A stretch of 64,000 bases of DNA from Arthonia radiata (Eukaryota > Ascomycota > Arthoniomycetes > Arthoniales > Arthoniaceae). This document shows, in pieces, positions 18,686 through 62,661 of the stretch. The DNA is taken from the NCBI GenBank assembly GCA_002989075.1, contig PSQN01000002.1, positions 186,001 through 250,000 on the forward strand, written 5' to 3'. A program made the position numbers and the translations under genes. The notes under the pieces were generated by a model, which saw nothing but the letters and a program-made list of their open reading frames with translations, searched no databases and had not been told where the DNA came from. The stretch's first letter is position 1, and the number at the start of each line of letters is the position of its first letter.

Positions 18686-19179
18686 ATGGCCCCTCAGCAA
18701 GCTCATGTAACAGAGCAGAAGTATAGGAAGAGAACACCCACTAGCGTACAGAAACGAAGCCCTCTTCCAGATCTACCTACAGAGGTCCTCGACATCATCC
18801 TCAGACAAGCCTTCACCGACGCCTTCAACGCACTCGTCTCGGCCGCGCCGTTGGAGAGCTTCCGGCAAGCCTTCGCAGCCTACAGGAAAACGGCAATGTC
18901 TCTCGCGCGCATCAACTCCACTATCTTCACTTCGTCCGGAAACAACTTGTTGCGCACCGTAGAAAGGTCGTCAGAGCACACGTCCGAGCTAGCGATGCAT
19001 GGTTTGCGCTTGTGTGGCAGGGAAGATTTGAGCTTGTCGTTCCTGATGCACAGGTGGAGGTACACTACAGGTTTGAAGACCTCCAAGAAGTATCGTATTG
19101 GATTGAGCGAGCTTCCATGCGACTGCGCATGATAGAACTGGAGAGGGAGGTGGAAGTCTTGCGGATACCGCTGGCGTAA
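18686..19179 (+). pseudogene. Array member 1: F-box-like/coiled-coil, frameshifted
   Basis: From the ATG at 18686 the frame gives the family motif LPDLPTEVLDIILRQAF and block two (SLARINSTIF). The homologous continuation is then in another frame. It begins about 18920-18945 (FVRKQLVAHRRKVVRAHV) and runs to 19179 with the expected helical tail (RMIELEREVEVLRI). The original frame ends at 19132 after an unrelated Cys-rich stretch. One small indel near 18905-18945 explains this, with no good intron there. It could be a sequencing error, but other members are also broken. Confidence 0.62.
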
Positions 19180-19288
19180 TTACTACGTCATTGGCCTTGC
19201 ACGGGACCTTGACGGACTGAAGTGCTCTGAAGGGCAGCAAACCACTAGAATCCAAACCCTCACGGCCAATTCGACAGCTACAGCACTC

Positions 19289-19762
19289 ATGGAAGCTAGT
19301 CGCTGCTCAATGGCAGCCTCAGCTACCACAGCGCCCTCAAAAGCCCTGCCCCTGGAGATGGTCCACCGCATCATCGACGTTGCTCTGAGCTCCGCCTACG
19401 ACGACATCATCTTCACGCGACGCTCTCTGAAAACCAGGTTGCGGGATTTGTGGAACGACTACCACAAGACCGTACTGAAGATGGCATCATTGGATAGTAG
19501 CCACTTCACCCAAGTGCTGCGCGCTCTCCAAAACCAGAAGGAAGCAGTCACGACAATTACGATTTCTGCGAACACAGCCTGGGCCCGAGCGGCCGAAGCG
19601 ATTCCGGATGAGGATAATGATCGCAACCTCCGCCGACGTCGTGTCAGAGCGGTGAAGTTGAGTTGGTTGGCTTGGAAATGGGGGCATTTGGTCCGCCATT
19701 TGGAAGGCGTGAAGCGCGATTGCAGCGATCGAAAGGAATGTCTATTGGTACCCGACTTTTGA
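19289..19762 (+). CDS. Array member 2: F-box-like protein
   Basis: 157 residues from the ATG at 19289; a second ATG lies at codon 8. The motif is the shortened form ALPLEMVHRIIDVALSSAY. Block two is VLKMASLDSSHFTQVLRAL. Instead of the usual acidic coiled coil, the C-terminus is a basic, Trp-rich helix (RRRRVRAVKLSWLAWKWG), so partner binding may differ or the tail may be replaced. It lies 110 bp after member 1 on the same strand. Other frames do not restore a coil. Confidence 0.6.
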   Translation: MEASRCSMAASATTAPSKALPLEMVHRIIDVALSSAYDDIIFTRRSLKTRLRDLWNDYHKTVLKMASLDSSHFTQVLRALQNQKEAVTTITISANTAWARAAEAIPDEDNDRNLRRRRVRAVKLSWLAWKWGHLVRHLEGVKRDCSDRKECLLVPDF

Positions 19763-19899
19763 AGCACTGTGCGAGGGGATGCGTCGCCACTTACCTTTCA
19801 CCTCTTGTGCTGCTTTTGCGGCTGGCTCAAGACCTGACCTCATTTTCTAGCGATTCTCATCAACAACGCTTTGTTCATCAACGGAGCATCTCGACAGTG

Positions 19900-20436
19900 A
19901 TGGAAGGCCCAGTTCCAAGTCGACGTCCAGCAACCAAGCCTCTACCAACACTCCCTCCAGAGATCACTCACAATATCATCGACCACTACCTCCAATCCGA
20001 ATTCAAGCGCATCATCTGTCGGCCTCGCCCACATCATTTGGATTCATTGCAGCAGTACCCCAACGCTGTGCTATGCCTGTCACAACTTAGCAACGCCTGC
20101 GCCGTCCGGACTGCTCAGATCACGCAGCAGCATTGCCAGACCGTCAAGGCCAATTTGGAGCTGTGGAATGCGGAGGCTCGGGAGGCTCGGGAGTTCTGGG
20201 AGAATTTCGATCCATTGGAATGGACTGCCGATATGATGCCGGAGCATGGCATCGCGTGGCAGAATATGGCGGTGGTGCGTGGAGCGCACGACGCTGTGGT
20301 CAATGTGACGTTGAGAAATGAGGTGAGGGCGCTGCGAGCTGAGTTGATAGAGGGCAAGCAACAGAGCGATGAGCTTGCACTGCAGGTTGAAGACTTGAAG
20401 CAGGAAAATGAGCGGTTGCGACGACAGTTACCATAG
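19900..20436 (+). CDS. Array member 3: F-box-like/coiled-coil protein
   Basis: 178 residues from the ATG at 19900; the frame is open further left but without family similarity. The motif is PLPTLPPEITHNIIDHYL (residues about 14-31). Block two is LCLSQLSNACAVRTAQI. The tail is a strong coiled coil of about 45 residues (LRNEVRALRAELIEGKQQ, then QVEDLKQENERLRRQL). It appears intact and is a good reference for the layout of the family. Confidence 0.72.
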   Translation: MEGPVPSRRPATKPLPTLPPEITHNIIDHYLQSEFKRIICRPRPHHLDSLQQYPNAVLCLSQLSNACAVRTAQITQQHCQTVKANLELWNAEAREAREFWENFDPLEWTADMMPEHGIAWQNMAVVRGAHDAVVNVTLRNEVRALRAELIEGKQQSDELALQVEDLKQENERLRRQLP

Positions 20437-20654
20437 TGGTGTCTCAGCATGCAAGGGCGGTGGATACGGTGCCAAGATGTGCGATGTCAGCACGCGGTGG
20501 GGTGCAGCTACAACCCCAGGCAGGAGTCTACGTCCTCTGCTGCTACGCTGGACCCTCGCTCGCATCTGACCTGTACAAGTCTAGTCCTTGATGGATCGGA
20601 CTACATCATCCTGTTTGCCAAACGTCCTCCGCATCATCTTCCTTGCAAACCTCC

Positions 20655-21319
20655 ATGCCGAGAACCATTCCAATGGATTCAGCCTGCTCAGTGCTCACAT
20701 CAAGCCTCGAACAGCCGGGTGCAACGAGCACCACCAAGAAGTTGCCGGACCTACCGCCCGAAGTCATCAACATCATCATTGACGAGCTGCTCCTCAGCCG
20801 TGCAGATGCCTTCCACGATGCCATATTTTGCGGGCGCGAATGGGCATTCGCGTATTACTGCATAGAGGCTCTCACGCCGTCCAAAGTTAGTGTCGCATTC
20901 TGCAATGGCGTCTTACGAATGTCGCGCCATCAGATGGGCGAGTGCAAGCGCATGATTGCGATACTCAGCGGGGAACTCACTTTCGATCGAAAAGGCACAG
21001 TCGCCGGTTTGAAGGTATCAGAAGAGTTGGAAAACATCCATAAGCGTGCACAGTACCGGAGGATTCATCCGGAGCTGATGGTGCTTTGCAAGATGTTGGC
21101 GAAGAAGACGCAGATAACTCAGTCGTCGCGTCGAGCGCAGCCACTTGGGCTCTGCGCAGAAGTAGCCGCGAGTGCGATCGGAAGGTCTCGGAGTTTCAAA
21201 CGGAGTTGGAGACTGCGAAGTTGGAGTTTGAGCGGTTGCGGGGGCTCAAACGCAAGGTGATGATAACTGAATCAGGCCGTCCACTTTGCTGCTGGTGGGT
21301 CGACCGACTGAGCATCTAG
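20655..21319 (+). pseudogene. Array member 4: F-box-like, frameshifted tail
   Basis: From the ATG at 20655: motif KLPDLPPEVINIIIDELLL, block two VSVAFCNGVLRMSRHQMGE, then LMVLCKMLAKKTQIT. The coiled-coil tail (VSEFQTELETAKLEFERLRG) is encoded in a different frame from about 21110 to 21319. The first frame runs through the tail as Ser/Arg/Trp-rich nonsense and stops at 21260. A single indel near 21100-21140 separates them. The copy lies about 90 bp from the start of the AT-rich island. Confidence 0.62.
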
Positions 21320-21576
21320 GACTTCAGCAGGGTAATGGTAACGAGATTGCTCAACCGGCAGTCCAGTCTCGGAACCCCAGCCTATCTTTTGGGGACGTGC
21401 ACGTTTATATAACCAGCCTAGTTACGTAAGGTACGTAACTTCTCTTTATAAATAGTTTAGGCTGCTAACCTATATTTATACTAATTTTATATAAAATTCC
21501 ACTTAAATTGCTACTATTTTTACGCTCTTTTTTTTATTTAAATATACTCTAAATTAGCTTAAATTAGGCTACTTTT
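21320..21576. other. Left border of AT-rich island
   Basis: Composition changes from normal to strongly AT-rich at about 21410-21440. At 21421-21439 there is a perfect inverted repeat, GTTACGTA / TACGTAAC, with a 3-nt spacer. The AT-rich part beyond it, read on the minus strand, weakly continues the integrase of the old gypsy element that resumes at 22084. Confidence 0.45.
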
Positions 21577-22083
21577 TGTTAAAAAGATGTAAAGAAGAAG
21601 AAGAATACTACTACAAAGAGTAGAAAGACGAGACCAGCTTAAGACTGATACAATACTCAGGCTTAGTACAGATACAATACTTAGTAGCATAGAAAAGCTA
21701 TTGTTATGTTGTCTGTCTTGTTAGCTAGAATTCTCTAGAGAGATTCTAGCTTATATATCTAAGTCTAGCGGCCCGTATAGGACTTACTAAATATCTGTTC
21801 TTTTAATAGAGGCTAGATAACCTATAACTTACCGTATAAGACAGTAATTCTGTTTATCTAAAACTATTAGTCTTTAAGTCTATTTTATATTGTCTTAGAC
21901 TATAGGCCAGCTGTCTAAAACGGGTCGTATAATGCTTCTTTTTGTTCTAAGTCTAGGCTACTAGGCCCGACCCTTTAAATAAAAGGCTTATTCTATTCTA
22001 GACCGAGACAGCTAGTAGAACTTGTCCGATACTCCGGGTTCCTAAGGATTCCGGCTAACTAGCTAATTAGTTAATTTCTAACA
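21577..22083 (-). repeat. Copia-family LTR, copy A (507 bp)
   Basis: Begins TGTTAAAAAG and ends CTAACA. It is similar over its whole length to the LTRs at 39713 and 44619. No internal region is attached. Its flanks (CTTTT / ATCTT) do not match as a target duplication, so it may be an old solo LTR or a recombinant. The integrase-like frame of the surrounding gypsy element seems to continue across it. Confidence 0.8.
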
Positions 22084-22862
22084 ATCTTTATTAAAGATAA
22101 TTTCTACTAATACTCTATGTTAAGTAGTAATATATTGATATAAAAGAAATACTGTATTGTATATAGTATAGCTTCGTTTTATTAAAATAAAGTATCTATA
22201 CTCTGTAAATTAATTTAAAATTATATAAATTGTATTGTACTTTATATTATTTTCTAGTTCTTTAGAAGATAGTAAATCTATAATAAAGTTTATAGTAATT
22301 AAGCTTTATAACTCTAATAGAATCTTCAATAGTTAAAGAAGGCTATATAGTTAATATTATTTATTCTTAATTCTTTTATATATATCGTACTTACTAATAT
22401 AGTTATCGATTATCTTTTTAAGTTTTAAAATAAAGTAAGTTCTTATAACTTTTTCTATAGTTATAGCAACTTCTCAGTATTTTTTTATAAGCTTTGTAAA
22501 TAACAGTATTCTATATATTTCTTAGAATATAGATTTTGCCGTTAAATATTTTAAATTTATACTTATTATCGAGCTTTACGGTATTATTACAGACTACTTA
22601 GTTTGTTTCTTCTTAACTAATCTTCTACTCTTATTAATACTAAAAGTTTCTTAGTTTTGTTATATTTAAGTGCTCCGTTCTAATTGTGTTATAAAATTAT
22701 ATATAAAACGTATATCTTATTAGCTATATAGTTTAATCTTTAATTAAGAGTATCGGCTCTCTAGTTTTTAATTCTTTCTAATGTATAATTTAAAAGTTAA
22801 ATAATACTAACTCTTCTATTTATCTTATCTATCGTTGGTTAAGAACTTTAATACTTATAAAG
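22084..22862 (-). pseudogene. Old gypsy element: RNase H end and integrase remnant
   Basis: The minus strand reads, with many stops, an RNase H C-terminal stretch (KVLNQR-IR, then ADTLN), a zinc-binding-like segment (YIEYC) and the start of the integrase core. This joins the RT/RNase H part at 28778-29900: reading order is restored if the solo LTR and gypsy insertion between them are removed. Catalytic residues are lost. Confidence 0.6.
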
Positions 22863-23101
22863 TATTAAAAATGGGTGTAGAAAAGAAGAAGGATACTACT
22901 ATAAAGAGTAGAAAGACGAGACCAGCTTAAGACTAGTACAATACTCAGGCTTAATACAGGTACAATACTTAGTAGCAAGGAGAAGCTATTGTTGTATTGT
23001 CTGTCTTGTTAGCTAGAATCCTCTAAAGGGATCCTAGCTTATATATTTAAGTCTAGCGGCCCGTACAGGACTTACTAGATATCTATTCTTTTAATAGGAG
23101 C

Positions 23102-45125: not shown

Positions 45126-45136
45126 AGTATAATTAA

Positions 45137-45328
45137 GGTAGCTATAAGAAAAGGAAGGAAGCGTTCCGCGCGCAGAGTAGAAAAGACAGGCGAAAGATCA
45201 AGGGTCTTGAGGCAGAGAACGCTGCGCTTCGTGCAAAGCTAGAGACTTATAGTATGCAGTGTAAGTCCAAAGCAGCTCGTCGAGTAGGCTGGCCAAAATT
45301 GCGATCGCTCGTGTTGCGCTTCAAATAA
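45137..45328 (+). pseudogene. bZIP-like or coiled-coil gene remnant at island edge
   Basis: A 63-codon plus-strand frame with no ATG starts 12 bp after the copia LTR. It reads SYKKRKEAFRAQSRKDRRK followed by KIKGLEAENAALRAKLETY: a basic stretch, then leucine heptads. A GTAAGT donor near 45260 suggests the exon ends after SMQ. It resembles either a bZIP DNA-binding region or the basic-plus-coil tail of an array paralogue whose 5' part was removed by the insertion. No matching 5' part is seen left of the island. Confidence 0.45.
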
Positions 45329-45531: not shown

Positions 45532-46011
45532 ATGCAGGAAACACCGAGCAAAGCTTCGAACCTCGGAAACAAGCGCTTGACAGACCTTCCACCTGAACTC
45601 ATCAACCAGATCATCGACACCTGCCTTTCAGAAGAACTTGCACAGCTCAACGAAGACGTCCTCTACACGGAACATGCACTCAACGCCATGACGCACTTCA
45701 AGGAGAGAGTGCTTGCCCTTGCAAACGTCAGCGTCGCCTTCCTCACTCGAACCGAGCAACACTCTCGACGACAGCACGATGACGCTAAACGCCTCGTCCA
45801 TTCGAGCACTGCTCTTTCAAACCAGGAGGCGGCCAGAGCGGAGATGGTCTTCGAGGTGCTGTTTAAGGTGCATGTCATGCTACGGGACTACAAGATGGAT
45901 GAGGAGAACAGAGGCTTGAGAGCTGAGAATGTGAGGATGCATGCGGAGGTGCGGAAGTTGCGGGAGCGTGTCGAGGCGCTGAAGATTCAGCTGCGAACAG
46001 TCTCGCAGTGA
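45532..46011 (+). CDS. Array member 5: F-box-like/coiled-coil protein
   Basis: 159 residues from the ATG at 45532; the frame extends left only through a GTG. Motif RLTDLPPELINQIIDTCL, block two LALANVSVAFLTRTEQHSR, then a tail coiled coil of about 40 residues (ENRGLRAENVRMHAEVRKL, ERVEALKIQL). Intact. It is the first member to the right of the island, on the same strand as members 1-4, which argues that one array was split. Confidence 0.72.
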   Translation: MQETPSKASNLGNKRLTDLPPELINQIIDTCLSEELAQLNEDVLYTEHALNAMTHFKERVLALANVSVAFLTRTEQHSRRQHDDAKRLVHSSTALSNQEAARAEMVFEVLFKVHVMLRDYKMDEENRGLRAENVRMHAEVRKLRERVEALKIQLRTVSQ

Positions 46012-46288: not shown

Positions 46289-46810
46289 ATGCAAACCGCG
46301 CACGATATTTCTTTGAGCAGCGATCAATCCGCTCAGACAATCTCGGTTAAGCCACCCTCAACTCCCCCGGATGGCGTGAAGAAGCCGATACAACTACCAG
46401 CTGAAGTCATTGACAAGATTCTTATCGAGCATGTGTTGGGTGACGACATTCAGGTCGTCTACGATGTCATGGATTACGAGCTCAAAACTGTTCAGCTTGA
46501 TCTGGGTGTGACAGCACAGATCATCTTTGCTGTTCATGTCGCGTCCGCCAACCGAGTATGTCACTGTCTCCAACATCACATCCGAGGATGCAATATAAGG
46601 ATGCTTGAGCTCGTAATGGAACTTCTTGAGCAATGCAGACCTAGACTCGATCGCCCGGATTCCATTGCCACCTGGAAATCCTTCCTTACTCCCGAGTATT
46701 ATCTACATCACCGCATCATCAACGCTCTAAGCAGAATTGAGACTATAAAACAAGGCTTTCAAGTGACCGACAAGAGGACTCGAAAGCTCATCATCGCCCA
46801 AAGGGTATGA
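46289..46810 (+). CDS. Array member 6: F-box-like protein, short tail
   Basis: 173 residues from the ATG at 46289. Motif PIQLPAEVIDKILIEHVLGD, block two IIFAVHVASANRVCHCLQHH, then a helical region. It ends KRTRKLIIAQRV without the usual heptad tail. A GTATGA donor-like site overlaps the stop, so the tail could lie in a further exon, but I find no coil in the next 250 bp. Confidence 0.6.
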   Translation: MQTAHDISLSSDQSAQTISVKPPSTPPDGVKKPIQLPAEVIDKILIEHVLGDDIQVVYDVMDYELKTVQLDLGVTAQIIFAVHVASANRVCHCLQHHIRGCNIRMLELVMELLEQCRPRLDRPDSIATWKSFLTPEYYLHHRIINALSRIETIKQGFQVTDKRTRKLIIAQRV

Positions 46811-47079: not shown

Positions 47080-47953
47080 ATGCCCAACTATCACCCCGCC
47101 GACGAATTACCGTGGCCCGTCGCACGTTACACACCTCGAAAACCCAAGCGACTGCCTCGGCTTCCTGCCGAGATCGTCAACACGATCCTTATCGATCATC
47201 TCCTAAGCGACTCTCTCAGTCTCATTGCACGGACCGCCAAATGGCAGCAAGGGCACGCGCGGAACGATTTCAAGGAGACCGCTCTCAGGGTGGCGGGGAC
47301 GAGTACGACATATGCGCGGAGCGTCGTGTACTTTGTCAATCAGCAGATTGATGAGTTTGAATTGAAGATCAAGAAGGTACTTCAATGACCCTTTCGCTGG
47401 CGCCCTCCTGTGTGATACAGTTTCTAGCCTATTTGCTGCTGGTATAATTGCTGATAAGACCAATTACTGACGTCTTTCCTCTAGGTATATTCAAAATTGA
47501 ACAGCCTCCACTCAAAGTCCTCTCTGGCCATCCATGGTCTTAAAATTGACCCGATCGCCGGCTCCTACCCTTAGTTGCGGTTACCAGCCAGCTTGCTGCT
47601 GTTGTGTTTGCTGTTGTATGCTGACTCTCAATCTGCAGGCCAGTCAGAACCTCCAAGCAGCTCAATACGGCATAGGAGGGTGGTCCAACCCCCACCGACG
47701 GGCACATTTTGCATATGAAGCTGGGATGTACGACGAAAGGGAGCTTGCTGGGTCGCTTTCATCCTTTCTGGAGGGTGTTGTTGAGGAGATCAAGAAGGTG
47801 CTCGTGGAAAATGAGACTCGCACCTTGCGCAAGGAGTTGAGGATGGTTCGTGGCGAGAACGAGAAGCTTCAGGGAGAGCTCAAGATGGCGAAGTTGGATG
47901 CTGAGAACGCGAAGCTGCGTTTACAGCTGAGCAGGTGCTCGGTGACGTGGTAA
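47080..47953 (+). CDS. Array member 7: F-box-like/coiled-coil, spliced
   Basis: Exons 47080-47376 and 47639-47953 join in phase 0 to 203 residues. The 262-bp intron has a GTACTT donor and ends CTGAC..CTGCAG. Exon 1 has RLPRLPAEIVNTILIDHLL and block two (RVAGTSTTYARSVVYFVN). Exon 2 has the coil (ETRTLRKELRMVRGENEKLQ and on to LRLQL). A TACTAAC..AACAG signal at about 47030-47049 suggests a 5' leader intron too. Most other members have no intron, so this one either gained it or keeps the ancestral structure. Confidence 0.66.
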
Positions 47954-48275: not shown

Positions 48276-48881
48276 ATGTCCTCCATCCGTGGGCGCTCGA
48301 CACAAGATCATCCAGTGCAACCTTCCAAGAAGCTACCTGGTCTTCCACCAGAAGTCATCAACAGAATCATCATACAACATGCTCTCGGCGACAGCTTCAT
48401 ATTCGTCTACAAGCCTACCGATTATGAATACGACGCCTCAGAGCCACAACTACAAAGTGTAGTCGCCACATTCAGCAAGGTCAGCCACGTATTCGCTACG
48501 AGTGTCCTCGATCATCTCAACGTGTACATCGAGTTGTGCGAGGCAGACTTGAGACAGGCTAAGCAAGAGCTTTACGGAGAACAAGTGGATGACGACCAAC
48601 AAGAGCGCGATCGCGTCGACCTAACGAGCCCGGGCGAATACCGATTATTTGCAAAGGTTGATAAAGTGAACAACATGATCGGTGCTTTGGTGACCCTGAG
48701 GGATAGTACGCACAAAGTGATAGTGGAAGACCGCAAAAGAGCGTTGTGCAAGGAGGTGCGGAGCCTGAAAGCGGAGATCCAGGAGCTGCGTCGGGACATG
48801 GTCAATTTGAAGAAAGAGAACACGGAGCTGCGTAAGGGCCTTGGTGCTGAGACGTTTGATCCTGAGCGTCGCCCATATTGA
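48276..48881 (+). CDS. Array member 8: F-box-like/coiled-coil protein
   Basis: 201 residues from the ATG at 48276. Motif KLPGLPPEVINRIIIQHALG, block two ATFSKVSHVFATSVLDHLN, an acidic Gln/Asp middle (EQVDDDQQERDRVD), then about 50 residues of coiled coil (CKEVRSLKAEIQELRRDM, NLKKENTELRKGL). Intact and one of the clearest members. Confidence 0.73.
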   Translation: MSSIRGRSTQDHPVQPSKKLPGLPPEVINRIIIQHALGDSFIFVYKPTDYEYDASEPQLQSVVATFSKVSHVFATSVLDHLNVYIELCEADLRQAKQELYGEQVDDDQQERDRVDLTSPGEYRLFAKVDKVNNMIGALVTLRDSTHKVIVEDRKRALCKEVRSLKAEIQELRRDMVNLKKENTELRKGLGAETFDPERRPY

Positions 48882-49149: not shown

Positions 49150-49752
49150 GTGCAGACACTGATTGCATATAGCTCATTCCAGCCATCATCAATCTTTGCC
49201 ACGGCGGAAAATGTGCAGCAAAACAGCAACAAGAAGATACCGGATCTGCCAGCTAAGATGATTGCCATGATCTTCAGAGACCACCTACTCAACGACGCCA
49301 TGGAGGAGGTCTACGAAGCGACCGGCAACAAGCGCCACGACTCGCTCACGTCTTTCACGGACTTGGCCGACGTTATACTTCAAGTCAGCATCCGGTCCGC
49401 AATGTCGGTTTCACAGTTCCTGGATCAGCATATGGAATACTGCGAGAGTGAAATGGAAGGACTCGCAGAACAGTTCTTCGACGAGCAGACAGATTCTTTT
49501 GCATATCCTCAGAGCGGTCCAATTACTGACAAGGGGTCCGAAACCTGGCAAGAACGATGTGCCGTTGAGCAGTTGTGGATGACCATGCAGAGCTACCACG
49601 CCATGTTGCATCGAGGCCTTCTGATGAATGAGGTGTCCAAGAACCGGGCGAAGCTTCGTGTGAGTCGGGCGGAAGTGAAGATCCTGCGGGGGGAGTCTGC
49701 GAAGTCGGAAGAAGACCTGCCGGTGCTGCGAGCGCGGTTGCTGAGACAATGA
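49150..49752 (+). pseudogene. Array member 9: F-box-like, no ATG start
   Basis: The frame is open from 49096 to 49752 and holds motif KIPDLPAKMIAMIFRDHLL, block two VILQVSIRSAMSVSQFLDQH and the tail (NRAKLRVSRAEVKILRGE, then EEDLPVLRARL). There is no in-frame ATG before codon 37 of the frame read from GTG 49150, which is inside the motif. The motif glutamate (LPxE) is Lys here. Either a 5' exon supplies the start (GTAATT near 49126 is a possible donor) or the start was lost. Otherwise the frame is clean. Confidence 0.55.
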
Positions 49753-50032: not shown

Positions 50033-50596
50033 ATGGCGTCCATAAGCATGGCATCGTCTCCGCCTGAGGAGTCGTCTCCAGAGCAGGCAACTGAAATCAG
50101 ACCGCTACCAACGCTACCCAACGAGATCATCTACACGTAAAGCCTCGACTACCTGCTCCAAGCTTCGAAAGACGACCTCGACGCGACCCCAGCTAGGAGA
50201 AAAGTGGCATTCCACGGTCTTAACCAGTGCATCAGCATTATCTCCCACATCAATGTCTACTGCGCACGACGGCTTCTCAAGCTCCTTCGCCGCATGATTG
50301 ATCGAGGCAGGAAGGATATCAAGAGGCTCAAGCATGAGCGGAAGGCCCCGAATGGCGACTTTGTGATCGACTGCATCACTCACTACGCCCATCGCCAGCA
50401 ACTGGATGCGAATAAGATCAATTTCCTGAGCGCCAAGGGCAAGGTGAAAGGACGGCTGATGGATAATCAGAAGCTTTTTGCCAGAGGTGAGCTTCGAGTG
50501 GAGCGTGTGAAGACAAAGATTCTCAAGGGACGGCTGAACAAGCGGGAGGAGGATCTCAGGATGTTGAGAGAGCTGCTGGTGAGGACTACGGATTGA
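50033..50596 (+). pseudogene. Array member 10: F-box-like, in-frame TAA
   Basis: From the ATG at 50033: Ser/Pro/Glu leader, then PLPTLPNEIIYT, then TAA at 50138-50140. The same frame continues at once with SLDYLLQASKDDLDAT, block two ISIISHINVYCARRLLKLL and tail (VERVKTKILKGRLNK, EEDLRMLRELL) to 50596. One base change (for example CAA to TAA) explains the break. All else is intact, so the lesion is recent, or the sequence has an error. Confidence 0.68.
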
Positions 50597-50898: not shown

Positions 50899-51561
50899 AT
50901 GCATCTGCCGACTTTAGAGGGTTCATCATTCGCTGCATCTGCTGCAGATGGAGATTCTACAAAGTCGAAACCTCTACCTCAGCTGCCCGTGGAGATAGTG
51001 CACAAGATCTTCTTCGACCGTCTGCTCAAGCCACTAGCGGAGGATGTCTATGAGAGCGAAGATCACACACCAGCTAAGCCGTTGCGCGACTTCCATAGAT
51101 CCGCCCAAATGATTGCGGACACCAACGTGGCATACCTGTACGAGATGTCCAGCTTTGCCAATGCTGCATTCGAGCGCTGCCAGATGGAGTACCACGAAGC
51201 GAACGCGAGAGTCCGAAGCCATCAGCCTGCACCAGCTTTCGGACCGATGCAACCCGAGAGACAAGCAGCTCTCGCCAGACTCAAGCAATCCGTTGTGGTT
51301 ATGATAAACATGATGCTGGCGCAGCAGGCGCTGCTGGCGAGGTCTAGAAACCATGAGAAGCGGCTCTTGCATGCGGAGTTGCTTGTGGCTCGTGCGAAGA
51401 TCAAGATTCTGAGGGGTCAGTGTATGAAGAAGGAAGCGGACGTTCCGGAGCTGATGGCTCGATTGAGAATTCAGAGGCAGGGCGTCAACAGGCTGAATAC
51501 CACATCGTCCCCCTCATCAAGGCCGCCAAATGGTTATGGAATGTGCCGACATATGAAGTAG
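50899..51561 (+). CDS. Array member 11: F-box-like/coiled-coil protein
   Basis: 220 residues from the ATG at 50899. Motif PLPQLPVEIVHKIFFDRLL, block two MIADTNVAYLYEMSSFANA, a Pro/Gln middle, then tail (LLVARAKIKILRGQCMKK, EADVPELMARLRIQ). After the usual tail end it runs on for about 30 Ser/Pro/Asn-rich residues to 51561, probably extra. Its tail and motif are closest to members 9, 10 and 12-14, suggesting recent local duplication. Confidence 0.7.
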   Translation: MHLPTLEGSSFAASAADGDSTKSKPLPQLPVEIVHKIFFDRLLKPLAEDVYESEDHTPAKPLRDFHRSAQMIADTNVAYLYEMSSFANAAFERCQMEYHEANARVRSHQPAPAFGPMQPERQAALARLKQSVVVMINMMLAQQALLARSRNHEKRLLHAELLVARAKIKILRGQCMKKEADVPELMARLRIQRQGVNRLNTTSSPSSRPPNGYGMCRHMK

Positions 51562-51611
51562 TCGGGACTGGCCGACAGAGATATAGCGAAGACAGAGGGC
51601 TCCACCTAGAC

Positions 51612-52290
51612 ATGCCAAGCCAGGCGTTTGCAGCACTAGCGCCTTTCACATCCTCTTCTTTATCTTCATCTTCATCTCTTCACAACGTACATGCTCCATC
51701 TTCATCTACTTCAGACACAGCATCTTTTGATAAGCCTGACAACAGCTCTTTCGAGATGGAGCACGAAACGCCAGCAGAGCACACAAAACCACTGCCAACA
51801 CTACCCACAGAGCTCATTATCAAGATCATCAAAGACCACCTACTCACGGATCTAGCTCGCGAGATCAGCGAAGTCGCGCGCTATCAGCTTGATAAAAAGC
51901 TTGGAGTACTGCATCAGACAGTGGAAGCGCTGTTCCAGACGGTTTAATCGTTGCGCCGGACGGTGGAAACGCTCTTAAACGTCAGTACTACAATCGCGCT
52001 CCTCACTCTCGGATTCCTCAGCAAATGGGAGGAGCGAGAACAGCGCAAGCTCAGGGAAGCGACGTCCCCGGCCCCCGACGGGAAACTTGACGCCGGTACG
52101 TCCAGAAATTCGATCTGGCGGACTTCGATCGGGAGGATCTGGCTGGAGCTGAACTTCTATGACGGAGGTCTTTTAAAGCCTATGATTGATAGGCATTGGC
52201 TCCTGGACGAGGCACGAGCGTTTAGACGGACACAAGGTTATGAAGAATGCAGGCCGGGGTGTTGAAGGAGCGGCTGCAAAAAGATCTAAG
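51612..52290 (+). pseudogene. Array member 12: F-box-like, stop plus frameshift
   Basis: From the ATG at 51612 (another at 51756) there is a Ser-rich leader and motif PLPTLPTELIIKIIKDHLL. TAA at 51945-51947 interrupts the frame, which then continues through block two (LLNVSTTIALLTLGFLSKW) to 52265. The terminal module (AGVLKERLQKDL) is in a different frame at about 52247-52290. With two lesions this copy is clearly dead. Confidence 0.66.
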
Positions 52291-52548: not shown

Positions 52549-53112
52549 ATGAACATGTTCCTTGCGACCACCGCAAAGGCAAAGACGCCAGCAAAACTCT
52601 CGAAGCGCCTGCCAACACTCCCCACGGAGATCATCACTATGATCGTCAAAGACCACGTATTGTTGAGCGCACTAGACACATTTCGCGAAAGCAAAAGTAT
52701 AGACACAGCAGCGTTGAAAGAGTTCAAAGTCATCCTGGCGGACTTTCCCGACGTCAGCGTAGGATTCGCACTCATGACCCACCAAGCACTGAAGCAGGCC
52801 TTAGAACGAGCAGTCACGGAGCGCGACAAGCTTGACCAACAGATTCCAGCGGATATGACGGCGTCCACGATCATGGAAAACCCCCGCTTCGTAACTCCGG
52901 CTATTAGAATGAACGCCGCCAGCGTAGTAGCAGACAGTTTCTGAATCCTCTTTGATGTTGTTGAAAAGAAACTGTTGGAGAACGAAATCCGTGCATTGAA
53001 AGCGGAGCTTCGGGTGCGCAAGGTCAACATCACGCTGCTACCGAAGGGCGCGCCAAAGCTGGACGAGGATATCAAGAACCTACAGTTCAAGCTGCGCAGC
53101 ATTGATCAGTGA
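52549..53112 (+). pseudogene. Array member 13: F-box-like, TGA before the tail
   Basis: From the ATG at 52549: motif RLPTLPTEIITMIVKDHVLL, block two VILADFPDVSVGFALMTHQ, then TGA at 52942-52944. The same frame goes on with KKLLENEIRALKAELRVRK and DEDIKNLQFKLRSID to a TGA at 53110-53112. The stop removes exactly the coiled-coil tail and could come from one C-to-T change (CGA to TGA). The truncated 131-residue product would still have the F-box-like part. Confidence 0.68.
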
Positions 53113-53458: not shown

Positions 53459-54065
53459 ATGTCATCATCGTTGCCTACATTCCCAGTAGAGATGCAGCCC
53501 GCTCATCCCTCGAACATGCAGCCTGAAAACTCGGTGGAGCGAGCGAAACGAGTGCCAGAGCTTCCAACAGAAATCATCGTCAAGATAGTCAAAGACCACA
53601 TTCTTCTCAAGCTGCTAGACGATGTCTTCAAGCACCAGTCTAAGGGGAACAGTACGGCTTTGCAAGCCGACAACACAGCTTTGCGAGAGCTGCGCACCAC
53701 GGCGAACAAAATCTCCCGCGTCAGCATCATGTTCGCGAACATGACTCTTAGCGTCTTCTCGAGCGGGATCGAACGAGCGGAGAGCGGGATCAAACCAGCG
53801 GAGGGCGAGAGAGACTCCTGAGCATAGGCTCCATTTTCCGTTCTCGGAGCGATACATTATAGAGACCTCACTCAATGTGGTGGCGATGAGGATGAGAATT
53901 GCACGTTCGCAGGTGGAGACGCTGCTGTCGGAGAACAAGACGCTGGCGGGGTTGGCGAAAGCACGGATATATGAGTTCTGGGTGAAGCTGATGGGAGGAG
54001 ATGTGGATGGGTCCTCGGAGGAAATCGCAAGACTAGAATCGTCGCTATTTGCGATCGACTACTGA
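53459..54065 (+). pseudogene. Array member 14: F-box-like, frameshifted tail
   Basis: From the ATG at 53459: motif RVPELPTEIIVKIVKDHILL, block two NKISRVSIMFANMTLSVF, then ERAESGIKPAEGERDS and TGA at 53819-53821. The tail resumes in the +1 frame (SLNVVAMRMRIARSQVETLL to SSEEIARLESSLF), ending at 54065. An indel at about 53780-53815 accounts for this. Confidence 0.62.
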
Positions 54066-54322: not shown

Positions 54323-54796
54323 ATGGCAGCCCCAGACTTGCGGTCTATCAGCAATGCGGCATACAATGAGTCGACGCTCGAAAGCAGCATTACAGCAGCG
54401 CAAGCTTCACAACGTCCCTCAGAAGACCGCCAGAAGCTCGACAAACAACTCCCTGTACTCCCCACAGAGATCATCCACAAGATCATTGAGGCACGACTGT
54501 GGGATGCTGCCAACATCGAGAGCGACCTCAGCAACCTCGAGCAGTTCCATCTGTCAGCGTGGGCTCTTGCAAACGTCAGTCTCGGGTTTTGGAGGCGCGT
54601 CGACATTTTCTTCGACCAATACCACGATGCCATGAAGGAGGAAGGCCCGCACATCGAAAACACTGCTCAGGGGTATCGATACTTCATGGGAAGGCTCGTC
54701 GCGGTTGTCGAGGTGATCCATAATCCGGAGAAAACGAGGCTGAGGAATGAAATTCGGGCTTTGAGGATGGAGGTAAAGGGTCTGAAGGTGATGTGA
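54323..54796 (+). CDS. Array member 15: F-box-like/coiled-coil protein
   Basis: 157 residues from the ATG at 54323. Motif QLPVLPTEIIHKIIEARLWD, block two WALANVSLGFWRRVDIFFDQ, and a short tail coil (TRLRNEIRALRMEVKGLKVM). Intact. Block two is close to members 5 and 20, with a full aromatic pattern like the F-box second helix. Confidence 0.72.
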   Translation: MAAPDLRSISNAAYNESTLESSITAAQASQRPSEDRQKLDKQLPVLPTEIIHKIIEARLWDAANIESDLSNLEQFHLSAWALANVSLGFWRRVDIFFDQYHDAMKEEGPHIENTAQGYRYFMGRLVAVVEVIHNPEKTRLRNEIRALRMEVKGLKVM

Positions 54797-54955: not shown

Positions 54956-55486
54956 ATGAAGCGACCCCGTTCTCCACAGACCGGCGGCTCTATTAAGAAG
55001 CTTCACGTTCCATCTCGCTTCCGCAAGCGCAAGAGAGTCCCAGGACTTCCCACTGAGGTCCTCGACAGGATCATCGAAGAACGTATTCTTAGTATCATTA
55101 CGGCCGAACGTCGCTCGAGACAGCACCCTAGCACGGATGCTATCATCGACCTTGGCTTCGTAAACGTTGCCTTTCGGACGCAGACGATCAAAGTCCTGAA
55201 CGAGCAAGCTAATCTGTACCTCGAACTAGCTGCGCAAGGTGACGAAGATGAGAATCACGACTCAGACTGCGATTGCTTTGAGACCACGGAGACGGATGAA
55301 GAGTCAGATGATGGGTCCGAGAATAAGGTGATCTATCCCGATGAATTGGCGCTGAACCTTCGGGATCTCAGTAGTCGTCTGGAGAAGAGCTGCGTGGAGA
55401 ACGAGGTTCGAGCTCTGAAGGTTGAGAACCGGGTTTTGCGGGAGGAGAATGAGCGGCTACGCCAAGGAAATGGGTCGGCAGCATGA
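54956..55486 (+). CDS. Array member 16: F-box-like with acidic insert
   Basis: 176 residues from the ATG at 54956, with a strong CCACCATG start context. A basic leader (SRFRKRKR) precedes motif RVPGLPTEVLDRIIEERIL. Block two is IIDLGFVNVAFRTQTIKVL. An acidic stretch of about 28 residues (DEDENHDSDCDCFE and on) separates it from the coil (CVENEVRALKVENRVLREEN). Intact. The basic leader could act as a nuclear signal (inference). Confidence 0.74.
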   Translation: MKRPRSPQTGGSIKKLHVPSRFRKRKRVPGLPTEVLDRIIEERILSIITAERRSRQHPSTDAIIDLGFVNVAFRTQTIKVLNEQANLYLELAAQGDEDENHDSDCDCFETTETDEESDDGSENKVIYPDELALNLRDLSSRLEKSCVENEVRALKVENRVLREENERLRQGNGSAA

Positions 55487-55751: not shown

Positions 55752-56393
55752 ATGTCACACTGTGCGATTACATCCAAAACCCCTACGCCATCATCTACGG
55801 AGCATTCAAAGCCTGCAGTCGGCCGGAAAGTCAGTCTTCCAGCTGAGATCCAATGGCACATTATCGATATCGTTCTTCTGGGGTCCTATGAGCGCATGCG
55901 TGCTGGCGAAGCCCAAGGCGTGCAGACGTACACAAACATATTGCTGAAAGTTGCTGTCACGAGTGCGAGTTACCGCAAGCGCATCCGCCCGCACATCCAC
56001 GGGAAGGCCGAAGAGCTGCTGTCCTATTTCAAATCATCAATCGATTCTGCACGGAGCTCTCTTCGCCAGCGGCCGTCGCTGCAAACATATCAGTCGGTCT
56101 TGGATTTGTTTCGCGCCTTGGGATTGAGCACGTATTTGAAGTGGCTGGGAGCCATCGTTCAGGGGTACGAGCTTCACAGAAGCGAAGTTGAAAAGGACAT
56201 TCAGCTGATGCGCAAGAATCGCGACATCACAGCTCTGAAGGCAGAGATCGAGACCTTGAAGGCTGAGAACAGGTTCAATAACCAAGCGCTCTGCGAAGCG
56301 AACGCTAAGTTGCAAGGGAGCGCGAGACGTGTTGAGGAGCTGGAGAAGGCCAACGCTGCTTTGCGCGAACAGATACAGATTGCCTCGGATTGA
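55752..56393 (+). CDS. Array member 17: F-box-like, long coiled coil
   Basis: 213 residues from the ATG at 55752. Motif KVSLPAEIQWHIIDIVLLG, block two LKVAVTSASYRKRIRPHIHG, a helical middle, then the longest coil of the set, about 65 residues (DITALKAEIETLKAENRFN, RVEELEKANAALREQIQI). Intact. Confidence 0.73.
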   Translation: MSHCAITSKTPTPSSTEHSKPAVGRKVSLPAEIQWHIIDIVLLGSYERMRAGEAQGVQTYTNILLKVAVTSASYRKRIRPHIHGKAEELLSYFKSSIDSARSSLRQRPSLQTYQSVLDLFRALGLSTYLKWLGAIVQGYELHRSEVEKDIQLMRKNRDITALKAEIETLKAENRFNNQALCEANAKLQGSARRVEELEKANAALREQIQIASD

Positions 56394-57730: not shown

Positions 57731-58282
57731 ATGGCCACCGCGATCGACGCTGAGAAGTCACAACCCGCTTCGAACATTGTCAGCAAGCGCTCAAAGCTCA
57801 CACTACCACCTGAACTGCAACAAACAATTGTTGATCATTTCATAGCCTCCGAATATGATAGTCTTTCGACTGAAGGAGAGCAAGCCTCGAAAGCGACCGC
57901 CGCCACACAATTTTCCGACGTGATGATCTGTATCTCCGAGGTCAATTCCGCATACAAATCCCGAGTGAGATTGTTCTTGGACAGGGAGTTGGAAGAGCTG
58001 GGCAATGGCTTGCGAGACAAGTTGCACCAAGCCCTCAAAGCCGTTCACGATCGTTCTATCGATCCAGCCGCGTTCAAGACGCTGCAAGACATCTGGGTCC
58101 CAACCGCACACGGGGCATTCCTTGAAAGCGTGGATAGGCGGCTGTCAAAGCAAGACCTGGTAAAGACGAATGAGGAAATGCAGCGCAAGGTTTCGAGCCT
58201 TCAGAAGGACAAAACAGAAGCCAACAGAGAGATTGATAGGCTGAGAGAGGAAGTTGAGGGACTCCGGGCACAGATTGCGTAG
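57731..58282 (+). CDS. Array member 18: F-box-like/coiled-coil protein
   Basis: 183 residues from the ATG at 57731. Motif KLTLPPELQQTIVDHFIASE, block two ICISEVNSAYKSRVRLFLDR, helical middle, and about 45 residues of coil (NEEMQRKVSSLQKDKTEAN, REIDRLREEVEGLRAQIA). Intact. Confidence 0.73.
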   Translation: MATAIDAEKSQPASNIVSKRSKLTLPPELQQTIVDHFIASEYDSLSTEGEQASKATAATQFSDVMICISEVNSAYKSRVRLFLDRELEELGNGLRDKLHQALKAVHDRSIDPAAFKTLQDIWVPTAHGAFLESVDRRLSKQDLVKTNEEMQRKVSSLQKDKTEANREIDRLREEVEGLRAQIA

Positions 58283-58724
58283 ACTTGGGAGGGACTCTAT
58301 GAGCATGATCACACTTCCGTAACGCCATAGAAGACAAGAGGCGAAAGCGGTCTTCTCAGAGGCGAAACGCATAGGCGTCGATCCGGGAAGGCTACTTGCT
58401 TGGTTGCTGTAGTTCCTCCCACGGTGTCGCATTATCGCAGCTGCTGAATGCCAATCCTACTGTCAGAGTTTCAGTAACCGAAAAACAGCGCCTCTAGCGG
58501 TCTCCCTGCCACATGAGAAGAGAGTGAAGACAGTAGGACAGATTAGTGTCATACTTCCGTTATTCACTAGAAGACAGCTAGCGCTTCCCGGTCATCTAGC
58601 GATTCTTTGCTTCTTTTTTCGAACCTCATATAATCATCGATTACAAAGACTACACCGAAGCCAACATTGTCTATAAGAACATGCGACAAATACTTTTATG
58701 AGCGCGCCTTCGGATCTTTGAAGC
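58283..58724. other. Intergenic gap in array
   Basis: 442 bp before member 19. No motif or coil found in any frame. Confidence 0.4.
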
Positions 58725-59216
58725 ATGGTTCCGTCGAGTCACCCCCTGCAGGGCCTTGCTTCGGTCCAGAGCGAGCAAAGTCTACCCGTTTTACCTCTAG
58801 AGATCGTTCTTCACATCGTGAATACTGCTCTTGATCAAGCCTTCGATGAGTGGGCCGCAGCAACCGTCTCGAACAGAGAATGGGAAGGTATGCACACCTT
58901 TGAGCAGACTCTATACCGACTTGGAGCCATTTGCCCTATCATTCTAGAACACGTCCGCCATTGGCTGCAGAAATCACTGGCTGTCACAAAAGGTCGCGCC
59001 GTCCATGCCGCCAGAGAAGCAATCGCCGCTAGCTATACCCCTACGAACCCTACGCAGACCAACCCGAGCAGAACAATAGTCGCTCTTGGTCGGACTGCGC
59101 AGACTCACACATGGATTGAGTTGATGCGTGAGAGGTTGCAAGCAAAGAAACTAAAAGCTGAAAATGTTGTGCTCGGAAAAGAGAATCGGAGATTGCGGTG
59201 CATGAGCTTGCATTGA
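58725..59216 (+). CDS. Array member 19: F-box-like/coiled-coil protein
   Basis: 163 residues from the ATG at 58725. Motif SLPVLPLEIVLHIVNTALDQ, block two YRLGAICPIILEHVRHWLQK, a Thr/Asn/Pro loop (SYTPTNPTQTNPS), then a tail (LKAENVVLGKENRRLRCM). Intact. Confidence 0.7.
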   Translation: MVPSSHPLQGLASVQSEQSLPVLPLEIVLHIVNTALDQAFDEWAAATVSNREWEGMHTFEQTLYRLGAICPIILEHVRHWLQKSLAVTKGRAVHAAREAIAASYTPTNPTQTNPSRTIVALGRTAQTHTWIELMRERLQAKKLKAENVVLGKENRRLRCMSLH

Positions 59217-59575
59217 AGACCTCACAGTGTTAAACTGACCAAGCAGAAGAGCATTCGCAGTCCAGAGATTTACAGATCTCGCCGAGATCAAGACATAACC
59301 TCTGAGAAAGGCGCGCTGTGACAGCATGGCGGCTATATTTCTGTCCCTCCAGCTGACTACCTGACTTCCTTCGTCAGCTGGCCGATCTTGCGTTCACGTC
59401 AAAGTCAAAATGTCCAGACGGATGACGCAATCGTGAACCAGACAGTGTAGAGGGATTGCCAACTCCAATTCAAAATGATCGCGCTCAGACCGCTACGTAT
59501 GCGCAGATGAAGCCGTCGCGCTCGCAAGGTTGTTCACTGATATAGGCCCACTCCGACCTCAGCTCTTCGATCACC
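59217..59575. other. Intergenic gap in array
   Basis: 359 bp before member 20. Nothing recognised. Confidence 0.4.
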
Positions 59576-60151
59576 ATGCCAGTCACTTCTTACGAGCAGC
59601 GTCTGCCTCTCGGAGTCTTGGAGCAAATACTCGATGCCTCTCTAGCAGCATCACTTCAGGAGCTTCTGGACGTAAAGTCCATCGAGGAGGGAAAGACAGC
59701 CCTGTGCTATCTGGAATGGACGATCGAGGATCTTGCCCTTGTAAACTTATGGGCTTTGCAGCGCGTGCGAACCTGGCTTCAACGCCAGAGTCATGATTTC
59801 ATAGAGGAGGCTGAACAGATCAGGGCAGCATGTCCACCATATTCTTCTCAATCTCCATCTGGTGTCTTGTACGACGCCATAACAAATGTCAACAAGCAGG
59901 AGGGAGCAGCGTTTATGGCGGTCTCCATGAGGCTTCAGAGCAAGAAGCTTGCGGCAGGTCAGCGCGTGAACAGCATGAGGATCTTGCGAGCTGAGAATAG
60001 AGCACTGCGAGCGGAGGTGGCGGCCTTGCGTGAACGTACGGCCAACATCACGGAGGACGCTCCGCGCGAACTTTCGAACGCGACGGATGGCTCGAACGCG
60101 AAGGATGGATTTGAAGCATCGCCATCTAACAGTCCCGCAACAAGCGCCTGA
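59576..60151 (+). CDS. Array member 20: F-box-like/coiled-coil protein
   Basis: 191 residues from the ATG at 59576, with almost no leader: the motif is RLPLGVLEQILDASLAASL, starting at residue 9, and lacks the LPxE glutamate. Block two is IEDLALVNLWALQRVRTWLQ. The coil is MRILRAENRALRAEVAALRE, followed by a Thr/Asn/Ser-rich extension of about 35 residues. Intact. Confidence 0.7.
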   Translation: MPVTSYEQRLPLGVLEQILDASLAASLQELLDVKSIEEGKTALCYLEWTIEDLALVNLWALQRVRTWLQRQSHDFIEEAEQIRAACPPYSSQSPSGVLYDAITNVNKQEGAAFMAVSMRLQSKKLAAGQRVNSMRILRAENRALRAEVAALRERTANITEDAPRELSNATDGSNAKDGFEASPSNSPATSA

Positions 60152-60405
60152 CACAGAGTCTGGCAACCTCGTTTGCGCGAACTTGATTTGTTGCCCTCAC
60201 CTCCTGCCACTCAGGATTATCTCCGTTTCCCTTCCACCTTAATCTTCTACCAAATCAGGATTATCTCCGCTTCCTAACCTCACAACCTTCACGTACCTTC
60301 AACAAGATTTTATTGCATGATCGCGACTGTCCGCAGCAGTAGTCGACCACCGTCGTTTTGACTGCAAACGATTCACGCAGTAGCCAAACTGTTCCCTATC
60401 GCAAA

Positions 60406-60996
60406 ATGTCCCAACCAATGCTCAGTCTAGCTGCACCGAAGTCATCGTGTACACGACTACCAATCGAATTAATCTATCAAATCCTCGACAACACTCTGAC
60501 AGATGCCTATCACCAAGCACTGAAGCATCTCGACTACATTGAGTTTCACGACACAATCGGAAACCTCGCTCGCGCCAGCCGATGGGTACTGAAATATGTA
60601 CGTTTGTGGCCGGACAGACAAATCAATCTTGCTCGAGCAGAGCGCGCCGAGGTCCATCGAAAGGGGGCTCATCTCCATCCACGACCAAGAAACCCCGACA
60701 ATGCCCAGCTCGCCGACATTCTCAAGACGAAGGAGGATACACATCGACTCGATGTCATTCACTTGATTATGCAAAGGGAGCGCGAGCGGTCAGGGAGGAA
60801 GAGGATGGAGGACGAGGCGCGAAAACAGAAGGCGAAGACTCGCGCAGCTCGTACCAGTTATTTCAAACTGCTCGAGGAGCTCAAGCACTGGCGCAAAAAG
60901 TACGACGGCATTGTTGTCGAGATTAGGAAGGTGTCTTGGGACAAACAGAGATTGCTCTCACAGATAGAGCAGCTGCATCGTAAGCATGCAAGATAG
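60406..60996 (+). CDS. Array member 21: F-box-like/coiled-coil protein
   Basis: 196 residues from the ATG at 60406. Motif RLPIELIYQILDNTLTDAY, block two GNLARASRWVLKYVRLWPD, then a long, very basic helical tail (RKRMEDEARKQKAKTRAA, YFKLLEELKHWRKKYDG, LLSQIEQLHRKHAR). The tail is more Lys/Arg-rich than others. Intact. Confidence 0.7.
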   Translation: MSQPMLSLAAPKSSCTRLPIELIYQILDNTLTDAYHQALKHLDYIEFHDTIGNLARASRWVLKYVRLWPDRQINLARAERAEVHRKGAHLHPRPRNPDNAQLADILKTKEDTHRLDVIHLIMQRERERSGRKRMEDEARKQKAKTRAARTSYFKLLEELKHWRKKYDGIVVEIRKVSWDKQRLLSQIEQLHRKHAR

Positions 60997-61318
60997 AGCA
61001 TAGGTTTGGCAACGCACAGGTGTTGCGCATCAAAAGCTCGTGCAAGCCAAGTCGGAACAAAGAACTGAAAAGAAACGCACTACAACAGTTGACAAAGTTA
61101 GCCAACTTGAGTTAACACTCTGTGCAGCCGCACCGCCTGCACCTCATATGTTCTCTGCCTGTCGACTTCCTTTTCTTTCTCGGGTCTTCGTGATCGATAA
61201 AACGCGTACCATAACTACATTTGGCTTCTTACATCAAACGCTCTAATACACAGAGACAACAAAGGCCAACAAGCTTTTCCTTCGGGATTAATCTTGCGAT
61301 TAAACTTGAAGCCCCTTC
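60997..61318. other. Intergenic gap in array
   Basis: 322 bp before member 22. Nothing recognised. Confidence 0.4.
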
Positions 61319-61801
61319 ATGTCAACGTCAATGGCGAACGCAGCTACGACAATCAATACAGCAACCGGCGGAATTCCTAGGCTACCCCCTGAAATACTCT
61401 ATAAGATCATCGGGGAGACACTAGCAACAGCTCGCCACGAATTTACGATCCCCTCAGACCCATCCCAGAACAAAGATGCAGCAGCCGCAGACTTTTCCAG
61501 CGTTGTATATAGTCTCGGTCACGTCAATCTCGCGTTCCTTGACATGACTATCCTGTGGCTGCGCAGCGTATTTGAGGCCGTCGTCTCCCACATGGCGAAT
61601 GCGAAGAAGACCGCCGCAGCGCCGGGCAATGCGCCGTCAACGGCAACGACGGGACTGACGGAAGTTCAATCTGCCAATCAGCTTGCTGCCACCTTGTTCA
61701 TGCAGGTGAGGATTGAGTTTCTGGAGAAGAAGAGGGTGATGAACCAGAATAGGGCTTTGTTGGCGGAGGTTAGGAAGCTGCGTCAGAAGCTCCGGGAGTG
61801 A
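61319..61801 (+). CDS. Array member 22: F-box-like/coiled-coil protein
   Basis: 160 residues from the ATG at 61319 (a second ATG at codon 5). Motif IPRLPPEILYKIIGETLATA, block two VYSLGHVNLAFLDMTILWLR, an Ala/Thr-rich loop, tail FLEKKRVMNQNRALLAEVRK then LRQKLRE. Intact. Confidence 0.71.
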   Translation: MSTSMANAATTINTATGGIPRLPPEILYKIIGETLATARHEFTIPSDPSQNKDAAAADFSSVVYSLGHVNLAFLDMTILWLRSVFEAVVSHMANAKKTAAAPGNAPSTATTGLTEVQSANQLAATLFMQVRIEFLEKKRVMNQNRALLAEVRKLRQKLRE

Positions 61802-62169
61802 AGGACACAGGCTCAGTGAGCGGAGGACCGGAGATGCATGTGACATTGCATCATCAAGCGCCTCCGCTGCTTGGGAAGCTATGTTGGAGGCTTGGTAAGG
61901 GAAGCACACGGGTCAGGTGGAAGCATACAATGCATGTGCATAATTGACATCATCAAATGCTTTCGCTGCAAAGGTCTCCAGTTGCTAGGCCAACGCATTA
62001 GCGGCTAATTAGCGCCCTTTACCCACGTCTCGCTCGACTTGTCCGCTTGTTCGCATGATAGGATACTGCCAGTTCAGTACAATCATGATCCATTAGCTAC
62101 GTGATAGCGGCCAGATATGTCAAGATCGATACCAATAGCGGTCGCAATTGTGTAACTAACAAACTCACC
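61802..62169. other. Intergenic gap in array
   Basis: 368 bp before member 23. Two similar short segments (GCATCATCAAGCGC at about 61848 and ACATCATCAAATGC at about 61947) hint at a small local duplication. Confidence 0.35.
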
Positions 62170-62661
62170 ATGTCCGCAACCATGCGAAGCTCGGCTCAGG
62201 TTCTCTCAGGCCCCGGCGTGAAGCTCCCTCAGCTACCAAATGAGATTGTACAGAAGATCTTGAGCATAGTGATCGTCGATGCCCTCGAGCGGGTGCTATA
62301 CGCGGAAACACCAGAAGATTTCAAAGAGTCTGCTCTCCTCCTGTTGGAGACTGGGTATGTCTTTCGAGAGATAAGCAGATCGATTGTCAGCTTCACATTG
62401 CAATTACTCTCCAAAAACTACGACATCCTTTGCACAGCACATGAAAACATGGTCAGAGACTCGAAGCAGCCATCCAAGGTGATCACCGAGCCCGCAGGTC
62501 AGATCCAAATCGAGACGTTGAACGAATACGAAACCAAATGCCGGTTTGCGATGACCCTGGTGACCGATATGCAAGTTGGTCTTATTAGAGAGCTTCGTGA
62601 AGACTACATCAGAAGGCTGGAGGCTAAGAACAGAGAGCTCCGCCAGAGACTCGGCGAATGA
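62170..62661 (+). CDS. Array member 23: F-box-like/coiled-coil protein
   Basis: 163 residues from the ATG at 62170 (context CACCATGTCC). Motif KLPQLPNEIVQKILSIVIVD, block two LLETGYVFREISRSIVSFTL, a helical middle, and a short tail (IRRLEAKNRELRQRLGE). Intact. Last member seen; it converges with the LysM gene, 139 bp between stops. Confidence 0.72.
   Translation: MSATMRSSAQVLSGPGVKLPQLPNEIVQKILSIVIVDALERVLYAETPEDFKESALLLLETGYVFREISRSIVSFTLQLLSKNYDILCTAHENMVRDSKQPSKVITEPAGQIQIETLNEYETKCRFAMTLVTDMQVGLIRELREDYIRRLEAKNRELRQRLGE

Follow-up and report, generated by a model that had tools for sequence, protein, structure and literature searches.

The window analysed here, a 64,000-nucleotide stretch of the Arthonia radiata genome (C16:186001-250000; the genome comprises 33.5 Mb in 16 contigs, of which C2, C3, C9, C10, C11 and C16 are named below), carries a tandem family of short genes that all lie on the forward strand and whose predicted products begin with a helix resembling helix 1 of the F-box. 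Judged from its sequence, the family is F-box-like with a lengthened hairpin, probably derived from the F-box. Taking the sequences and the predicted structures together, our preferred interpretation, to which we give somewhat less than an even chance, is that these are small, probably intracellular helical proteins with a lengthened F-box-like head, a bundle that varies between members and, in many of them, a zipper, which would serve as divergent adaptors that arose from tandem duplication.

A co-oriented tandem family that runs past the window

A sequence-only reading of the window had described a single-strand array of about 23 members and had proposed a family profile as a check. We aligned the open frames of 19 window members, leaving out members 10, 12, 13 and 14, and used the resulting profile hidden Markov model (HMM) to search 344 kb of the contig (C16:46001-390000) in six frames, comprising 8417 stop-to-stop frames of at least 25 amino acids, with 4747 bases read as N. 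The profile retrieved all 23 listed loci, together with seven downstream loci that had not been used to build it, at approximately 71.4, 72.1, 78.2, 78.8, 79.5, 80.5 and 81.5 kb in window coordinates (E 8.8e-18 to 5.6e-11). All 30 array loci are on the forward strand. Outside the array, no match in the 344 kb reached an E value of 1 or better; when a shorter C16 stretch was searched with a limit of E 10, matches outside the array appeared at E 1 to 9.6. The single-strand tandem family is therefore real, but the earlier estimate of its size was too low, as the array continues past the window and further copies lie on other contigs.

A second profile was built from the 28 stop-free array frames (members 10 and 12 were left out, and only the first parts of members 13 and 14 were used). 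It gave two matches outside the array, at E 0.32 and 0.96, and reversed array sequences, used as its control, scored at most 3.5 bits. In a leave-one-out analysis, all 28 frames were retrieved at E 4.4e-6 or better, the weakest being member 17; the alignment in this analysis still included the row left out, and the seven unused downstream loci are the cleaner test. The open frames of the array encode 102 to 259 amino acids.

Conserved positions and predicted structure

The most conserved columns belong to helix 1, where L is found in 28, P in 27, E in 26 and I in 28 of the 28 frames. A second conserved site is a V-S/N pair (V in 17 frames; S in 16 and N in 9), whereas the C-terminal coil, of the type R-x-L-x-A-E-x-x-x-L-R, is less general, its best columns being present in 16-18 of the 28. 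The coil of the common layout proposed earlier is thus not universal. By eye, the leaders ahead of LP look short and polar.

Two AlphaFold models were computed, from 21 sequences common to both with each target heading its own alignment. The model of member 8 (48276-48881) has a mean predicted local distance difference test score (pLDDT) of 86.7, with helices at residues 25-45, 49-69, 71-100 and 119-188, and that of member 22 (61319-61801) has a mean of 86.9, with helices at residues 24-43, 52-69, 71-100 and 108-159. Both models therefore have four helices of 20-21, 18-21, 30 and 52-70 residues, the last being very long. In both, helix 1 begins directly after LP, and the break between helices 2 and 3 falls at the S/N position. 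Structure searches with the models returned helical proteins of many kinds. From sequence and models, a member would start with a polar leader, followed by an LPxE helix 1 of the F-box type. Helices 1 and 2 would form a lengthened hairpin, V[SN]xxF would join helix 2 to helix 3, and the long fourth helix would end in a zipper in roughly 16-18 of the 28 array members.

Comparison with the F-box

As an F-box reference, we aligned 20 PF00646/PF12937 matches of our own choosing from this genome. The N-terminal profile of the array aligned with F-box helix 1 over 20 columns, with an hhalign score of 29.2 and a probability of 84.8. None of 298 scored column shuffles reached this score (highest 13.9; an earlier set of 300, a few of them unscored, gave a highest of 17.0), and the best of 23 windows from a Rad23 alignment, our real-protein null, scored 10.6. 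The likeness of the first block to an F-box helix, which had been proposed from the sequence, is thus supported. Array members have an LPxE-capped helix 1 as F-boxes do, and a V-S pair, preceding an often aromatic residue, stands at the helix 2/3 break of the models; the 20 reference F-boxes that we read have V-C or V-S.

Several observations weigh against an F-box origin. The helix 1 match falls to a score of 25.3 and a probability of 70.8 when eight off-array rows, including the locus L059, are added to the profile. The part corresponding to helices 2 and 3 scores 11.0 when aligned alone, which is above 199 scored shuffles (at most 10.5) but only equal to the best Rad23 window (11.0), and a resemblance of the second block to an F-box helix, as claimed earlier, is accordingly no more than possible. 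The distance from LP to V, taken from the MAFFT alignment column, ranges from 38 to 53 over the 28 members and is 46 in 15 of them, compared with 23 in 14 of the 19 reference F-boxes in which the pattern was found; among the other five, two measure 22 and 25, and the remaining three are low (5, 11 and 15), probably through pattern errors. The spacing exceeds that of the F-box by about 23 residues and is roughly double; classical F-box helices are also shorter than those modelled for the array members. None of the 10 members with complete match lists exceeds any Pfam F-box cut-off, and no F-box family is among the best 25 of the 55 Pfam families (ranked by members, then by E value) that match 21 members. 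The array is likewise absent from the genome's 69 PF12937, 42 PF00646 and two PF13013 matches, for which the best candidates were scored. Finally, convergence could account for an amphipathic helix with an LP cap.

Because the cut-offs are not reached, the spacing is lengthened and only the helix 1 match stands above both of its nulls, we do not file the family as F-box, and neither membership of the F-box proper nor an identity as F-box/SCF adaptors is supported. The same Pfam lists (10 complete, and the best 25 of 55 families for 21 members) contain no WD40, LRR or Kelch match, in agreement with the earlier claim that such a partner is absent, and no substrate domain was recognised in the array members.

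Relation to other known systems

Protein homologue searches with the family, by a method that needs shared words, found no relatives outside this genome, while the Rad23 frame of the same window (9243-10403, reverse strand) gave at least 1732 homologues at E 1e-10 or better (8000 candidates scored). This is consistent with the proposal that the family is lineage-specific. Among the best 120 of the 1732, the closest Rad23 proteins are those of Coniocarpon cinnabarinum (69% identity), an unnamed protein (65%) and Chrysothrix (56%); Coniocarpon belongs to the Arthoniomycetes, which are mostly lichen-forming fungi. A literature search, in sources seen in part, found no description of such a family.

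Two profile families with a longer spacer, 2EXR (PF20150) and F-box-like_2 (PF13013), share the LPxE start, and one array member has a weak PF13013 match (E 0.11). However, neither the genome's eight PF20150 matches (E 0.01 or better) nor its two PF13013 matches include an array locus. The C-terminal heptad coil recalls leucine-zipper/bZIP proteins, but in both models the coil of the array members extends a helix of the bundle. The bZIP cut-offs are not reached (best bZIP_2 match E 0.0095, 16.4 bits compared with 22.3), and bZIP families match two of 21 members. The commonest weak Pfam matches are coiled-coil profiles, namely DivIC (5/21 members) and HALZ (4/21). In plants and nematodes, tandem F-box and MATH-BTB arrays form large, local, fast-evolving sets of adaptor genes; the adaptor domain is canonical there, in contrast to the array described here.

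Divergence of the array and the AT-rich island

Mean pairwise identity among the 28 frames is 17.7%, and the most similar pair, members 13 and 14, shares 33.7%. Adjacent frames are on average 20.8% identical, compared with 17.5% for other pairs (permutation p 2e-4, the floor of 5000 permutations), and identity decreases with distance along the array (Spearman -0.32). Since neighbours are more alike and identity declines with distance, we conclude that the copies arose by local tandem duplication. Most of the intervals separating the 28 frames are short, 20 of the 27 measuring 137-514 bases. Over 53,889 aligned codons, identities at codon positions 1, 2 and 3 are 0.351, 0.418 and 0.299, compared with 0.267, 0.262 and 0.262 expected from composition. 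Therefore, the frames are coding and their silent sites are near saturation. The array would thus have grown by local tandem duplication, with subsequent divergence almost to saturation.

Between members 4 and 5, the array is split by an AT-rich island of approximately 22 kb (about 22000-44500, edges approximate, from 2-kb bin composition) with a strong dinucleotide bias of the type left by repeat-induced point mutation (RIP). In the 2-kb bins covering 22001-44000, GC content is 26-39%, the TA/AT ratio is 1.55-2.21 and the composite index is 1.05-1.79, and the next bin has an index of 0.65. On the evidence of this bias, RIP has acted in this genome. By contrast, the index is -0.67 to -0.92 in the bins from 46 to 64 kb, as in the flanks, and -0.65 and -0.22 in the two bins containing members 1-4. 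RIP requires similar copies, and the array copies are too unlike one another to be its targets now. The locus is therefore a natural case of a large tandem family that persists in a repeat-mutating genome, with the island heavily RIP-biased and most of the array not. Where the island ends on the right (45137-45325), there is a weak match of coil type (E 0.43), which may represent the end of a member since lost.

Copies outside the array

We searched the whole genome with single proteins as queries (members 22, 26, 5 and 9, a copy on C11 and one on C2). This search is insensitive, as a query with member 16 retrieved only itself, and the counts given here are therefore lower bounds. Eight off-array loci were selected by us from the matches and fetched, and seven of them score E 3.9e-5 or better against the 28-member profile: one each on C11, C3 and C10, one on C16 at about 1.145 Mb and three on C2. 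The eighth, L059, gave no family match (E 0.6). The C2 copies lie within an 18-kb stretch (C2:3364089-3381844) with nine match places, all on the forward strand; three of these sequences were read and confirmed, and of the other six, two score below E 1e-3 and the remaining four between E 0.06 and 0.17. Two family frames at C16:1145050-1145650 are perhaps a small array of two, and so perhaps are the paired matches at C3:1295275-1296704, of which the first was read. Three further weak matches lie on C3, C9 and C11.

The off-array copies retain helix 1 and most retain the junction, whereas their C-termini differ from those of the array, a pattern that would be expected if the head is constant and the tail varies. 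Specifically, the last 80 residues of the three C2 proteins contain 4, 7 and 5 cysteines, compared with a mean of 1.1 and a maximum of 3 in the 28 array frames.

Alternative explanations

The resemblance to the F-box is confined to 18-20 columns of helix 1, and this would fit if the family had no F-box ancestry and were instead a lineage-specific four-helix/zipper dimerisation family, in which LPxE is a convergent helix cap and the members form homo- or heterodimers, for example as regulators. The modelled helix lengths and the lead of coiled-coil profiles among the weak Pfam matches are in line with this explanation, which we consider possible, though on balance doubtful, given that the helix 1 match lies far above both shuffles and real-protein windows, that the V-S/N pair coincides with the helix 2/3 break, and that the bZIP matches stay under their cut-off. 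About 30 highly dissimilar tandem copies, with others on further contigs, could also suggest a recognition repertoire, in which the array stores diversity for heterokaryon self/non-self recognition, defence or recognition of symbiotic partners. Some 2 kb beyond the right end of the last member's frame starts an open frame (C16:270313-271107) that encodes a HET domain, scoring 25.0 bits against a cut-off of 22.5 in the genome scan and 35.7 bits in the Pfam scan; the genome has 24 HET matches. However, this adjoining match was noticed post hoc and has the lowest genome-scan score among the 24, no array member is among them, and the Pfam lists described above (10 complete, and the best 25 of 55 families for 21 members) contain no HET or NLR domain, so that we judge such a role to be unlikely.

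Two further explanations have much less in their favour. Secreted effector-like proteins would fit the fast divergence and the adjoining frames with LysM and cerato-platanin domains, but the polar leaders speak against secretion, and we regard this explanation as highly improbable; in a crude hydropathy check, none of the 28 frames had a strong N-terminal hydrophobic stretch, with both positive controls also below the limit. That the majority of copies are functionless relics in decay is similarly far-fetched. Four of the 23 members in the window show visible damage (an in-frame stop in members 10, 12 and 13, truncation in member 14), members 6 and 7 match the profile over its first half only, and the coil is missing from several members; against this, 19 of the 23 retain an open frame with a profile match, and codon position 2 is the best kept while position 3 is near chance.

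Possible roles of a lengthened F-box-like head

In our preferred interpretation, that of F-box-like adaptors, the LPxE end would descend from the F-box and may still dock one constant partner (Skp1 or similar), the zipper would pair members with each other, and the freely varying bundle surface and C-terminus would select the target. If the head does still bind Skp1, this lengthened F-box form would be one that current profiles miss, and fungal F-box gene counts would be too low.

A more far-reaching proposal, which we put forward with little confidence, is that a lichen-forming lineage possesses in this family a new repertoire for recognition inside the cell, made of lengthened-F-box adaptors with interchangeable tails that diverged in a RIP-active genome. 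The tails would be zippers in one array and cysteine-rich in another, and co-oriented arrays would occur on at least two contigs. Divergence would have been driven close to saturation in a genome whose RIP activity would mutate duplicates that stayed alike. In a lichen-forming lineage, such a repertoire would provide a concrete set of genes on which self or partner recognition could be tested.

Individual members and neighbouring genes

The profile E values of members 1-9, 11 and 15-23 given here are those of sequences inside the 19-member profile. To the left of the island lie members 1 (18686-19132, 148 amino acids, E 4.9e-26), 2 (19289-19762, 157 amino acids, E 3.1e-26), 3 (19900-20436, 178 amino acids, E 2.5e-48), which has the complete layout including the coil, and 4 (20655-21260, 201 amino acids, E 1.6e-38), the last before the island. 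The array resumes with member 5 (45532-46011, 159 amino acids, E 3.5e-36) and member 6 (46289-46810, 173 amino acids, E 4.1e-29), whose match is limited to profile positions 1-115. Member 7 (47080-47388, E 1.5e-26) is open for 102 amino acids and contains helices 1-3 only. A coil frame downstream (47501-47953, forward strand; E 9e-4 to the coil part of the profile) is perhaps its remainder; it sits in a different frame, and 20 formal single introns could connect the two. One intron-like stretch considered as the link was rejected, as its acceptor runs into a stop in the coil frame.

The modelled member 8 (201 amino acids, E 9.8e-49) is followed by member 9 (49150-49752), which is 200 amino acids long from a GTG (E 3.2e-50). 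Members 9 and 26 have no in-frame ATG ahead of the LP block, which by their sequence may reflect an alternative start, an upstream exon or damage. Member 11 (50899-51561, 220 amino acids, E 5.2e-51) stands among the broken copies. Member 10 (50033-50596) has its stop inside the LP block (E 7.4e-10 for the remainder of the frame), member 12 (51612-52265) ahead of the second block (E 1.2e-11 for the part before the stop) and member 13 (52549-53112) ahead of the coil (E 1.2e-12 and 0.0076 for its two parts), while the truncated member 14 (53459-53821, E 5.1e-12) lacks the coil in frame.

The remaining members of the window are 15 (54323-54796, 157 amino acids, E 2.7e-31), 16 (54956-55486, 176 amino acids, E 5.8e-37), 17 (55752-56393, 213 amino acids, E 2.2e-35), 18 (57731-58282, 183 amino acids, E 1.4e-38), 19 (58725-59216, 163 amino acids, E 2.8e-32), 20 (59576-60151, 191 amino acids, E 9e-40), 21 (60406-60996, 196 amino acids, E 2.2e-36), the modelled member 22 (160 amino acids, E 1.2e-40) and 23 (62170-62661, 163 amino acids, E 8.2e-30), with the next array member about 9 kb further, past the window.

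Between these array blocks, at 63204-63884 of the window and at L002:473-6934, we found frames with LysM, PAN, chitin synthase and cerato-platanin domains, which are of cell-wall or secreted type. On the reverse strand near the left end of the window (4658-5908), a 416-amino-acid frame has a borderline BED zinc finger match (E 8.9e-4, 19.7 bits compared with a cut-off of 20.6).

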